Positions 1 to 8,744 of a stretch of DNA of 9,352 nucleotides are shown here, piece after piece. Under the pieces are notes generated by a model, which did no database searches, was not told the DNA's origin, and saw only the letters and a list, made by a program, of their open reading frames with translations. A program made the translations under genes and the position numbers. This DNA is from Pseudonocardiaceae bacterium (GTDB lineage: Bacteria > Actinomycetota > Actinomycetes > Mycobacteriales > Pseudonocardiaceae), in the NCBI GenBank assembly GCA_025937115.1, contig JAICSB010000108.1, positions 1-9,352 on the forward strand, written 5' to 3'. Each line of letters starts with the position of its first letter. Within the stretch, counting starts at the first letter, position 1.

Positions 1-1222
<1,222 letters not shown>

Positions 1223-1226
<4 letters not shown>

Positions 1227-1627
1227 GCCAGAACGAGGAATCAGCGGTCGTGCGCGGAGCGGCTGGCATGCCGGAGGTTGCGATGACCCGTCCGGACGGT
1301 GATGTGGCCGACGTCGATGACCTCGAGGAGGCCATGCGCGATGTGGTCGACCCGGAGCTGGGGATCAACGTGGTCGACCTGGGTCTGGTCTACGACATCC
1401 GGGTTGACGAGGGCAATATCGCCATCCTGGACATGACGCTGACCTCCGCGGCGTGCCCGCTGACCGACGTCATTGAGGACCAGACCCGTGCCGCGCTGAC
1501 TGGGGGCCCCGACGGGGGCCTGGTGGACGATGTGCGGATTAACTGGGTGTGGATACCGCCGTGGGGTCCGGACAAGATCACCGAGGATGGCCGAGAGCAA
1601 CTGAGGGCACTCGGGTTCACTGTCTGA
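1223..1627 (+). CDS. sufT: SufT, MIP18/DUF59-family Fe-S assembly factor
   Basis: 134-aa protein of the MIP18 (DUF59) family, whose bacterial SufT members help mature Fe-S proteins and close suf operons in actinobacteria. Conserved blocks are DPELGINVVDLGLVYDI (residues 43-59), MTLTSAACPLTDVIEDQ with the conserved Cys78 (71-87), and the terminal WIPPWGPDKITEDG. The first ~30 residues are a poorly conserved acidic leader. The GTG start at 1223 is supported by GGAGG at 1214-1218 and the GTGA overlap with sufU. This is the last gene of the suf operon here. The stop codon almost coincides with the point where homology to a PIN-domain gene begins in another frame (see the pseudogene entry), so the downstream junction looks rearranged while the SufT C-terminus (LRALGFTV) appears normal for the family. 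Confidence 0.94.
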
Positions 1628-1877
1628 GGTCAGCCGCTCACCCCGGCAGGCCCAACTTCGTCGCTTGCTCCGTGGCTGTGATGTCGCCGGACTGGACGAG
1701 GACACCGCACACCGAGTCGGTGAGCTCCTCGCTCACGCGTGCACGTCCGACATCGTTGACGGTGCAGTCGCCGCCGTAGCCATTGTCCGTTCCGCTGCGG
1801 TGCTCACCGGCGATCGAGGTGACATCGCCCATCTTCTCGGGTCAGCGGGTGTCGATCTCCCCATTATCGATATCTGA
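1605..1877 (+). pseudogene. 5'-truncated PIN-domain (VapC-like) toxin gene
   Basis: A frame open from 1605 (after TGA at 1602-1604) to TGA at 1875-1877 reads as the second half of a PIN-domain protein. It begins VSRSPRQAQLRRLLRG at 1629, continues through LDEDTAHRVGELL and TSDIVDGA, and ends VLTGDRGDIAHLLGSAGV plus a short beta strand. This follows the usual order in actinobacterial VapC-like PIN proteins (RQARLxRLL, LDExxARRAGELL, TSDVVDA, VLTSDPxDI). The later acidic residues are present (Asp at 1749-1751 and 1758-1760). The first ~50 residues, with the leading catalytic aspartate, are absent, and there is no ATG/GTG with a ribosome binding site at the 5' end. No antitoxin gene is adjacent. 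It is most likely a dead fragment joined to the end of sufT. That it is a PIN fragment is judged from recalled family patterns, not from a search. Confidence 0.72.
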
Positions 1878-6368: not shown

Positions 6369-6593
6369 GTGGGCACCCATCGAATTGCCACGACGCGGTT
6401 GTCTCAGCGGCCGAGCCCGGGCCCCGCGAACACCGTCCCACCCGACCCAGAACCCATCCCCAACCCCGGCCCTGGCCCGCTGCCCCCGGGCCCGCCGAAC
6501 CCCGTCCCCACCCCACCACCACCAGTACCCGACCCGCCTCCGCCTCCTCAACTGCAGTCTGGGCGTCCGGTGCGGTACCGGGGTCGGCAGTGA
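6369..6593 (+). CDS. Small proline-rich protein, unknown function
   Basis: 74-aa protein from a GTG start with a near-perfect Shine-Dalgarno (AAGGAGG at 6353-6359). A ~20-residue N-terminus (MGTHRIATTRLSQRPSPGPA) has no hydrophobic core, so there is no ordinary signal peptide. Residues ~24-60 are a proline-dominated low-complexity stretch built from PxPxP, NPGPGP and runs of four or five prolines (PPPPV, PPPPP). A short basic tail ends RPVRYRGRQ. Such a segment would form an extended polyproline-II rod and could bind partner domains or span the wall, but nothing identifies a role. Short proline-rich proteins are common in actinobacteria. It follows the AI-2E gene after 152 bp and faces the membrane protein gene convergently. 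Long frames in this stretch on the other strand are treated as compositional shadows, because only this one has a good ribosome binding site. Confidence 0.6.
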   Translation: MGTHRIATTRLSQRPSPGPANTVPPDPEPIPNPGPGPLPPGPPNPVPTPPPPVPDPPPPPQLQSGRPVRYRGRQ

Positions 6594-6718: not shown

Positions 6719-7228
6719 TCAGTCGTGGATGGAACGCACGGTCATGCGACCGAGCGCAAATGCGGCCAGAGCCGTGGCTAGGGCACCGAGCCCGTAGAAG
6801 TAGCCGAGCTGCTCGAACATCTGCAGCCAGTTCGGCCCGAGCGGCGGACCGATCGGAGCCGTCAACCCGTCTACCCGCCACACCATACTGACCACCGGCC
6901 CGATGATGAACCAGATCCCGCCGATCAGGGCGAGCCACGCGCCGAAGCCACCGCTGGCCCGATTCGCGCTCGGACCGAGGATCAGACCACCGAGGAACAG
7001 GGCGATCCCCGGCAGGATGTTAAACCACAGCCGGTCGTAGGTGAAGAACCAAGGCACTGTGACGCCGAAAGCGTAGTGGAAGTACGGCCCGATGAACGGG
7101 ATGACGGCGCCCCAAATGCCGAGCAGCACGAGCAGGAAGGCGCTGCCCGCCCCACGGCTGCGCTGCATCGCCAGGCCCGCTTTCCGACCGTCGGGCCGAG
7201 CGCCGAGCGAAGACTGTGTCGTCGACAT
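6719..7228 (-). CDS. Four-helix membrane protein of unknown function
   Basis: 169-aa hydrophobic protein. A polar ~28-residue N-terminus (MSTTQSSLGARPDGRKAG) is followed by four predicted membrane helices at ~29-50, ~67-86, ~95-116 and ~141-160. Paired glycine-rich helices 2 and 3 read LPGIALFLGGLILG and WLALIGGIWFIIGP. This resembles small actinobacterial membrane proteins with SPW-like repeats, but the family is not certain. The ATG at 7228 is chosen because GAGGAG lies at 7234-7239; an upstream in-frame ATG at 7261 would fall at about the predicted transcription start and lacks a good site. The gene lies 91 bp downstream of the encapsulin gene on the same strand, with its own sigma-F-like promoter in between. 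It could be co-regulated with the nanocompartment or simply a stress-induced neighbour. It has no cargo-loading peptide at its C-terminus. Confidence 0.82.
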   Translation of the reverse strand: MSTTQSSLGARPDGRKAGLAMQRSRGAGSAFLLVLLGIWGAVIPFIGPYFHYAFGVTVPWFFTYDRLWFNILPGIALFLGGLILGPSANRASGGFGAWLALIGGIWFIIGPVVSMVWRVDGLTAPIGPPLGPNWLQMFEQLGYFYGLGALATALAAFALGRMTVRSIHD

Positions 7229-7268
7229 GGCAATCTCCTCAATGAGGGTACTTTCAAGCATCGACCGA

Positions 7269-7319: not shown

Positions 7320-8147
7320 CTACCCTTCGGTGAGGACGACCGCTGCGTCGGGTTCGGTGACGCGGAAATTGAAGCTTTCTTCCAGATACAGCGTCACCAG
7401 TTCGGCGTCGTGCCGGGTATAACCGATCGAGAAGTCCTGCCCGACGTCGAGGATGAAGTCGCCGCCGCGCTTGCTCAGTACCAGGGCACCATCCAGGCCG
7501 GGAGCCCACACAACGTCTCCACCGCCGAGGATCTTGGTCAGATGCTCGCGCAACGGATAGCCGCCGTGTTCGGCCGCCTCGGCGATGCGGGTGTATCCCT
7601 GCGGGCTGACGGCTAAGGCATACGGACCCTCGATGCCGGCCTGGCGAAGCAGGTTGGTCGCGTTGGCGATTGCGTGTGGATAGGTGTTGGCATCTTGCCC
7701 CAGCGTCAACCAGGGATGTGAGCTGCTGTCCACGATTCCGGTGATTCCCGCTTCCGGCCAGCCGTGGAACACCGTGCGGTTCTCGATCAACGCGGCGTCA
7801 TGCGTGGCGCGGTCGAGATCGCCATAGTCGACGTCGGTGGCGCCGCGTTCGGCGTCCTGCAAGCCGGAGCACTCCACGGTGAAGCTCACCCGCAGTTCGG
7901 TCAACGCCAGGACGCGCCGTTGCCGGGCGACCACCGTTTCGAACTTGGTGCCCGGCGGTGCGCTGTCCAGCGAGGCAGTCCGGCCGAGGTTGGTGGCGGA
8001 ATGTGTCCAGCCGTGTGGCCCGGACCAGTCGACCAGCCGGCGTGCGGCCAACCTGGCGGTGAGCCGGTCCTTGGCCTCGTCGTCGATCTGCTGCCACCCT
8101 TTGGCCGGGATGGGTGCGTATTTACGTAACAGATGATCGGTTGTCAT
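7320..8147 (-). CDS. enc: Family 1 encapsulin shell protein (HK97 fold)
   Basis: 275-aa encapsulin of the linocin-M18/CFP29 type, slightly longer than the usual ~265. It self-assembles into an icosahedral protein shell that packages cargo with a C-terminal targeting peptide. The N-terminal helix region MTTDHLLRKYAPIPAKGWQQIDDEA is typical (R-x-x-AP, W-x-x-I-D-x-EA), followed by RRLVDWSGPHGW. The extended E-loop region is at ~50-85, a P-domain region includes FTVECSGLQDAERG (~89-102), and the A-domain spans ~128-225 with PYALAVSPQGYTRI and the pore-region loop EHGGYPL. The C-terminal YLEESFNFRVTEPDAAVVL ends the P-domain. The ATG at 8147 overlaps the hemerythrin stop (TGATG), and a GAAGGGA ribosome site lies inside that gene. 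A longer frame reaches upstream to 8423 but is an overlap artefact. No cysteine except Cys93. The adjacent tagged gene identifies the natural cargo. Confidence 0.95.
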   Translation of the reverse strand: MTTDHLLRKYAPIPAKGWQQIDDEAKDRLTARLAARRLVDWSGPHGWTHSATNLGRTASLDSAPPGTKFETVVARQRRVLALTELRVSFTVECSGLQDAERGATDVDYGDLDRATHDAALIENRTVFHGWPEAGITGIVDSSSHPWLTLGQDANTYPHAIANATNLLRQAGIEGPYALAVSPQGYTRIAEAAEHGGYPLREHLTKILGGGDVVWAPGLDGALVLSKRGGDFILDVGQDFSIGYTRHDAELVTLYLEESFNFRVTEPDAAVVLTEG

Positions 8148-8704
8148 CAACGTCCCTTCAGGCTGCCGATACCGAGGGAGTTGTTCGCGTCGCCGGCGGA
8201 GATCTCCGCCTCTATTGCGCTGACGTACGCCTGCGGATCCTTGTCGCTGGTATCCAGGCCCTGGGCATCGGAATGGTCTGTCTTGAACTTCAGAAACTCG
8301 TGGCCTAGGTTCACGCGCACACTCAGCGGAGTGTTGCGCCGGAAGTCGGGCAGCGCGTCGTCCTCTTCCTCTGCCATATGACTGCTGTTGGCCACTCGTG
8401 CGTGCCGGACGCCATCCCACCACTGCGCACTACCGATGGGGTGCCGCGCTGCTTCGCGCACGCCGTCCCGGATGTCGTTGTGATCACCGATCGCATCGAC
8501 GGTTTCGTCTTCGGCGTCATCGCCACGGCGCAGCAGCTTCGGATAGAAGATGGCCTCCTCAGCAGCGGCGTGCACCTCGAGCAGGTTCGCGAGGGGTTCC
8601 CAGATCTCGCGTAACTGCTCGGGTGCGTCGGCATCGTCCAATGCGGCGAACTCCCGACGAAACGTCTCATGATCGTCGAGAATCAACTGTGTGATATCCG
8701 ACAT
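8147..8704 (-). CDS. Hemerythrin-like encapsulin cargo protein with targeting peptide
   Basis: 185-aa hemerythrin-domain protein, a four-helix bundle carrying an oxo-bridged di-iron centre able to bind O2 or NO. The ligand set is complete: His12 (DDHETF), His45 and Glu49 (HAAAEEAIFYP), His75 (GDHNDI), His109 and Glu113 (SHMAEEED). The domain occupies ~1-140; an extra helix and an acidic linker (~141-173) follow. The protein ends NNSLGIGSLKGR, an almost ideal family 1 encapsulin cargo-loading peptide, so it should be packed inside the shell made by the next gene. The ATG at 8704 has GAGGAG at 8712-8717. The stop overlaps the encapsulin start by one base. Hemerythrin cargo is an established but less common encapsulin class in actinobacteria, linked to protection against oxidative and nitrosative stress; the exact role here is inferred. 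Confidence 0.95.
   Translation of the reverse strand: MSDITQLILDDHETFRREFAALDDADAPEQLREIWEPLANLLEVHAAAEEAIFYPKLLRRGDDAEDETVDAIGDHNDIRDGVREAARHPIGSAQWWDGVRHARVANSSHMAEEEDDALPDFRRNTPLSVRVNLGHEFLKFKTDHSDAQGLDTSDKDPQAYVSAIEAEISAGDANNSLGIGSLKGR
8153..8159 (-). promoter_or_regulatory. Encapsulin ribosome binding site inside the cargo tag codons
   Basis: GAAGGGA (8159-8153, minus strand) lies five bases before the encapsulin ATG. The same bases are part of the CTG-AAG-GGA codons for Leu-Lys-Gly of the hemerythrin targeting peptide. The site therefore serves both as translation signal for the shell gene and as coding sequence for the shell-docking tag. Confidence 0.7.
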
Positions 8705-8744
8705 CGCACCGCTCCTCAGCTCGGGTTCCCAGCTCCGGACCTGC

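Follow-up and report, generated by a model that had tools for sequence, protein, structure and literature searches.

A shell gene and its hemerythrin-domain cargo

The window analysed here, a stretch of 9,352 nucleotides from the soil actinobacterium Pseudonocardiaceae bacterium (assembly GCA_025937115.1, contig JAICSB010000108.1), carries a two-gene unit composed of a gene for a hemerythrin-domain cargo (8147..8704, minus strand, 185 residues) followed by a gene for a family 1 encapsulin shell (7320..8147, minus strand, 275 residues). The two genes overlap by one base (TGATG at 8147), and the last ten residues of the cargo (176-185, encoded at 8150..8179, minus strand) form the targeting peptide SLGIGSLKGR, hereafter the tag. 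Such a pair had been proposed in a preliminary description of this DNA, and the observation was confirmed by the family scores, the tag, the overlap and the recurrence of the pair in 36 of 80 fetched relatives, which also indicates that the association is not due to chance. The unit is probably a family 1 encapsulin operon in which a di-iron hemerythrin-like cargo, loaded by its tag and enclosed by the shell, would remove nitric oxide (NO) and hydrogen peroxide (H2O2).

The shell protein matched the family 1 encapsulin model NF041155 with 288.1 bits (curated cut-off of 100) and the Pfam family PF04454 with an E-value of 2.3e-79, in agreement with its initial assignment, and its AlphaFold2 model reached a predicted local distance difference test score (pLDDT) of 87.0. 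Its PDB sequence matches included Cfp29 shells, and it was closer to Cfp29-type than to EncA entries. The cargo domain corresponds to PF01814 (Hemerythrin, 51.3 bits against a Pfam gathering cut-off of 25.3), and the six ligand residues listed for it at the outset (His12, His45, Glu49, His75, His109 and Glu113) are indeed present and invariant in all 125 aligned cargo sequences, the window sequence being counted in and duplicates removed. The mean pLDDT of the cargo model was 92.4, falling below 50 in residues 174-185, which corresponds to a C-terminal targeting peptide placed behind a flexible linker. The tag, already read as a family 1 cargo signature, fits the consensus SDGSLGIGSLKRS given in a passage of PMC8346489.

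Hemerythrin cargos form a known class. Passages of PMC8346489 count 45 of them in family 1, of which 42 are actinobacterial and none had by then been structurally characterised, in agreement with the earlier remark that they are known in actinobacteria and less characterised; the same passages credit to a previous study that these cargos are dimers in solution and confer oxidative and nitrosative protection. The window pair shares with the actinobacterial systems, as outlined there, the shell family, the cargo, the C-terminal tag and the two-gene order, with no difference of kind. The pair is a genuine case of a kind already known and adds one more hemerythrin encapsulin.

Relatives with and without an adjoining shell

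Relatives were collected by a scan of genome contigs, 80 of 155 being kept. The closest (L001) belongs to the metagenome-assembled genome (MAG) Pseudonocardiales bacterium nzgw100 (genome G045), with a cargo 99% identical and DNA 96.0% identical over 1,912 bases. The shell gene lay directly downstream of the hemerythrin gene in 36 of the 80 relatives (gap of -10 to 91 bases) and was absent from the locus DNA fetched for the remaining 44, some of which had short downstream flanks (242 bases in L052, under 2.3 kb in L034, L036 and L076). Of these 44 hemerythrins, 41 were tagged and three (L034, L043, L079) were untagged. A shell match was found somewhere in the genome for 41 of the 44, including 40 of the 41 tagged copies, with the match consisting only of a 29-position fragment in G003 and of two pieces in G015; the tagged exception was L076, from a 3.4-Mb MAG, and the single untagged case was L043, whose genome also carries the paired L028. 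The tagged unlinked copies came from Mycobacterium or Mycolicibacterium (38), Rhodococcus (two) and a Frankiales MAG (one), and a single contig of M. rhizamassiliense carried the hemerythrin and the shell some 0.84 Mb from each other. Two MAG sequences presented interrupted frames in which a sequence error is possible: the cargo frame of L004 (1126-1653) stops just ahead of the tag, and the shell frame in the genome of L001 (G045:C19:354-1118) contains one TAG.

The tag is conserved among relatives and the linker preceding it is not. All 38 mycobacterial unlinked loci retained the peptide, with ratios of non-synonymous to synonymous differences (pN/pS) of 0.086 for eight tag codons, 0.80 for ten linker codons and 0.204 for the core (pS between 0.51 and 0.59). 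The corresponding values for 35 of the 36 linked loci were 0.27, 1.14 and 0.45, all ratios being summed pairwise counts over related sequences and not independent events. Constraint on the tag in relatives is established at the sequence level, as are the two protein families, the tag and the conserved ligands. A strict tag pattern was not matched by 42 of 121 metagenomic homologues (counting that of the window), and some tags were eroded (e.g., SLGTGSVKGR), so that certain relatives may no longer load the cargo.

The shells available to the unlinked hemerythrins seem to be of another lineage. A tagged open reading frame was found directly upstream in all 30 fetched shell loci from genomes with an unlinked hemerythrin (28 recognised by one motif, the other two with SIGSMKG), and a DyP domain adjoined the shell in 13 of the 13 such genomes searched for DyP. 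In a quick tree of 75 shells, a branch with support of 100 split 22 DyP-linked shells from the rest (51 hemerythrin-linked plus two without an intact linked hemerythrin). Mycobacterial DyP encapsulins (Cfp29 shell) have in common with the window system a family 1 shell and the same kind of tag, one mycobacterial shell being 41% identical to that of the window over 257 positions, but differ in their separate shell clade and in having DyP cargo beside the shell; residues such as R36, D40 and several at 228-247 are common to both clades, which is not taken as evidence of a conserved peptide pocket. A second quick tree, of 104 hemerythrins, placed the unlinked copies of mycobacteria and Rhodococcus inside the tagged, shell-linked group, with the main untagged group standing apart. 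Because orthologous tagged hemerythrins persist where the examined shells are of the DyP-linked lineage, the tag may be viewed as a portable address and not as part of a fixed pair. The retention of the tag in relatives whose shell lies elsewhere or belongs to another lineage suggests that cargoes can change shells.

For the reverse case, DyP was searched for in 27 of the 36 genomes whose shell is hemerythrin-linked, and 24 contained it (72 copies, the ends of all being read). Thirteen copies had a short (381-390 nt) N-domain match, and nine of them were tagged by pattern: four beside a second shell (G056, G059, G060 and G077, all Amycolatopsis) and five unlinked (Pseudonocardia G065, G070, G073 and G074, and the MAG G047). 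Another short-type copy, in G055 (L212), had the tag-like end SSLGIGGMKDA, and 58 of the other 59 DyPs were devoid of a tag-like end, the remaining one (L260, in G079) ending in SLGIGGKP. Each of G047, G055, G065, G070, G073, G074 and G079 had a single shell match, which was hemerythrin-linked. The occurrence of tagged unlinked DyPs in genomes with only a hemerythrin-linked shell indicates that a non-adjacent enzyme can keep the address.

The association of tag and shell was surveyed in two families. Among 297 genomes of the family of a close relative, a hemerythrin match was present in 62 and a shell above the cut-off in 58. The 64 hemerythrin copies read (of 66) comprised 36 that were tagged and shell-adjacent (one, L134, 1.6 kb from the shell), one shell-adjacent copy with its frame broken before the tag, four tagged and unlinked, and 23 untagged, 20 of these in genomes without a shell. 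Counted by genome, a shell occurred in all 39 that had a tagged or frame-broken copy and in one of the 21 that had only untagged copies. The 301 genomes of the mycobacterial family (Mycobacteriaceae) gave a hemerythrin match in 34 and a shell in 191; 27 of the 30 copies read (of 35) were tagged (20 by pattern, seven with V for I judged by eye), all 27 in shell-bearing genomes and only three beside the shell. The survey also disclosed a further hemerythrin group (L281, L283, L284, L286, L287, L288 and L291), 41-46% identical to the hemerythrin of L057, carrying a V-type tag such as SLSVGSLKR and never shell-adjacent, all its members being in shell-bearing genomes.

These sequence comparisons led to a proposal that stands evenly poised, in which two actinobacterial family 1 shell lineages, hemerythrin-linked and DyP-linked, would share the targeting peptide as a common key, so that a tagged enzyme whose own shell lineage is missing would persist and be loaded into the other: in Mycobacterium and Rhodococcus the DyP-linked shell would receive hemerythrin, and in some Pseudonocardia the hemerythrin-linked shell would receive DyP. 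If true, this would create a mixed compartment handling H2O2 and NO together. Several observations weigh against it. Three short-type DyPs (L202, L216, L239) are untagged, and the four Pseudonocardia with an unlinked tagged DyP form one clade in the hemerythrin tree, so that a single event may account for all four. The two trees were built quickly and contain long branches and numerous open forks. In addition, 18 of the 297 genomes of the first survey had a shell and no hemerythrin match, and a strong association of tag with shell is seen in that survey only, because in the second one shells are common (191 of 301) and two of the three untagged hemerythrins were in shell-bearing genomes.

Cargos encoded away from their shell are not unprecedented. 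As described in part of PMC8229669, unlinked secondary cargos include EncC and EncD of M. xanthus and BfrB and FolB of M. tuberculosis, which resemble the tagged hemerythrins studied here in being encoded away from the shell; the difference is that here a cargo linked in one lineage is unlinked in another. A passage of PMC6934571 reports that shells cluster by cargo and that a Pseudonocardia exception in the haemerythrin cluster has a peroxidase. The many unlinked tagged relatives would not have been listed by the search outlined in PMC8346489, which was limited to 5 kb from the shell. Neither hemerythrin as unlinked cargo nor the reciprocal pattern was found described in the literature passages on hemerythrin encapsulins, and no priority is claimed.

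It is possible, if rather doubtful, that in the species from which the window comes the shell also takes up other tagged proteins whose genes lie elsewhere. Close relatives with a second, unlinked tagged hemerythrin (G046, G048, G123, G155), or with a tagged second-hemerythrin fragment (L194) plus an unlinked tagged DyP (G047), point in that direction, as does the existence of secondary cargo, already established according to parts of PMC8229669. However, in the nearest genome, G045, the second hemerythrin (L158) and the one DyP are both untagged, and a strict scan found a single tag, on the paired cargo, with a pattern that misses variant tags. The same scan of the seven nearest genomes returned 10 matches (the seven paired cargos, one per genome, together with L194 and two unread matches), against five with the reversed pattern. 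The preliminary description had viewed the pair as isolated and the compartment as possibly dedicated. The former holds at the window locus and the latter is only partly supported, by the G045 scan, but a dedicated, isolated pair was rejected as a general rule for the relatives, in which tagged hemerythrins and DyPs occur unlinked, including in other close relatives.

G123 and G155 keep the shell and, downstream of it, a protein of the 180-residue type described below for the window, without an intact linked hemerythrin in the listed frames. Judging from sequence, it is as if the linked cargo gene of G155 had decayed, leaving the unlinked tagged copy L156. In the same genome, the frame before the shell (L176, G155:C276, 6684-7622, minus strand) starts with residues like a hemerythrin end (AYVSSVQ). 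A divergent second encapsulin-like protein was also noticed in G046 and G155 (L177:6283-7257, plus strand; L178:5727-6893, minus strand), scoring 93.9 and 75.3 bits, just under the family 1 cut-off of 100, and flanked in both by the same long frames of ~300, 986 and 1,100 residues.

Proposed chemistry and loading of the cargo

At the positions named above, the predicted ligands of the cargo are four His and two Glu, all conserved, with no Asp in the HxxxE position of residue 113 and no His four residues past His75. The latter place, which is presumably that of the fifth His in O2 carriers, is occupied by Arg79 in 125 of 125 sequences. The best fold match of the cargo was a protein of the NO-peroxidase kind, and its sequence profile reached PDB entry 6q09, the PDB search with the cargo sequence alone having given a single irrelevant match (an esterase, E-value of 0.67). 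Entry 6q09, displayed under a title reading Rv2633c homolog from Mycobacterium, is taken here to be the M. kansasii hemerythrin-like NO peroxidase. Both proteins are four-helix bundles with an added helix, in which H45, E49, H75, H109 and E113 of the cargo align to identical residues at an overall identity of about 18%. The ligands of this mycobacterial class are four His, two Glu and one Tyr, and the M. kansasii enzyme (PMC8913304) is described as a monomer. The cargo has the four His and two Glu and its Tyr54 is conserved, yet Phe53 faces the first Tyr of the YYP in 6q09, and such a Tyr ligand may be lacking.

In the O2/NO function first suggested for this locus, the encapsulated hemerythrin would be a reversible O2 (or NO) binding store and not an enzyme. 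A hemerythrin domain with conserved ligands fits with a store, and hemerythrins bind O2 and NO according to a passage of PMC8346489; however, this possibility is made unlikely by a ligand set that falls short of the one given for O2 carriers in part of PMC9388753 (five His, one Glu and one Asp), by the invariant Arg79 and by the fold match. The O2-store component of the suggestion is weakened accordingly, leaving the initial interpretation, taken as a whole, partly supported. A role in iron storage, as in the encapsulated ferritin systems, which a di-iron protein inside a family 1 shell could suggest, is very improbable, since the cargo is a hemerythrin domain and not of the ferritin-like cargo family, and literature passages on hemerythrin cargos report no iron-mineralising function for them.

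In the favoured model of an NO- and H2O2-removing compartment, the first gene would produce a small hemerythrin-like protein, predicted to bind two irons, whose flexible C-terminal peptide would attach to the inside of the shell encoded by the second gene. The shells, presumably T=1 particles of about 24 nm, would assemble around the cargo, and small molecules would enter through the shell pores to reach the enclosed di-iron centres. Coupled translation may help this assembly, a proposal based on the gene overlap and on the resemblance of the Lys-Gly codons of the tag to a shell ribosome-binding site. These codons form the AAGGGA at 8153..8158 (minus strand), 5 nt ahead of the shell ATG, and GAGGAG at 8712..8717 (minus strand), 7 nt ahead of the cargo start, would likewise serve the cargo gene. 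That the tag codons are conserved for this ribosome-binding site, the peptide itself being unused, would suit the position of AAGGGA and the frequency of AAGGGA, AAGGAG or AAGGGG at that place in linked loci, but is hardly credible and is contradicted by the unlinked orthologues, as the 38 mycobacterial loci without a nearby shell all keep the peptide under the strong constraint reported above and in most cases encode its Lys-Gly by different codons (AAAGGC in 20 of 38).

Comparison among relatives makes it testable whether a shell is dedicated to its neighbour cargo or takes in whatever tagged enzymes the cell produces. Should one shell hold both tagged hemerythrin and DyP, a name derived from the operon neighbour would overlook part of the chemistry of the compartment in many actinobacteria.

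Neighbouring features

A scan of the window for promoters found none, and terminator-like sites numbered 1 against 1.5 in shuffled sequences. A gene for a protein of 180 residues (6719..7261, minus strand) lies 58 bp downstream of the shell gene on the same strand. It was present in eight of nine close-relative loci (L001, L002, L003, L005, L006, L023, L175 and L176; not in L004) and in none of the other loci searched, with no Pfam match, and its membership of the cargo-shell unit is only possible. Conserved neighbours were considered as a clue to a pathway, and none emerged: besides cargo and shell, and leaving aside clusters of overlapping or antisense frames, no family occurred in more than nine of the 24 paired loci counted (of 36, close MAGs and some others being left out), and beside the 38 mycobacterial copies the commonest neighbour family was found in 21 loci, with no neighbour family identified.

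On the plus strand of the window, positions 6369-6593 contain a proline-rich frame of 74 residues with a GTG start, AAGGAGG upstream and no Pfam match. Positions 1-1627 (plus strand) hold iron-sulfur assembly genes, encoding the end of a SufS-like cysteine desulfurase, SufU (TIGR01994, above cut-off) and an FeS_assembly_P protein. The frame that follows (1620-1877, plus strand) encodes 85 residues whose match to a PIN domain (PF01850, 21.3 bits, below the cut-off of 23.6) is confined to the C-terminal portion of the domain (profile positions 57-113 of 120), and this is probably a truncated PIN gene between the SUF-type gene and recQ.
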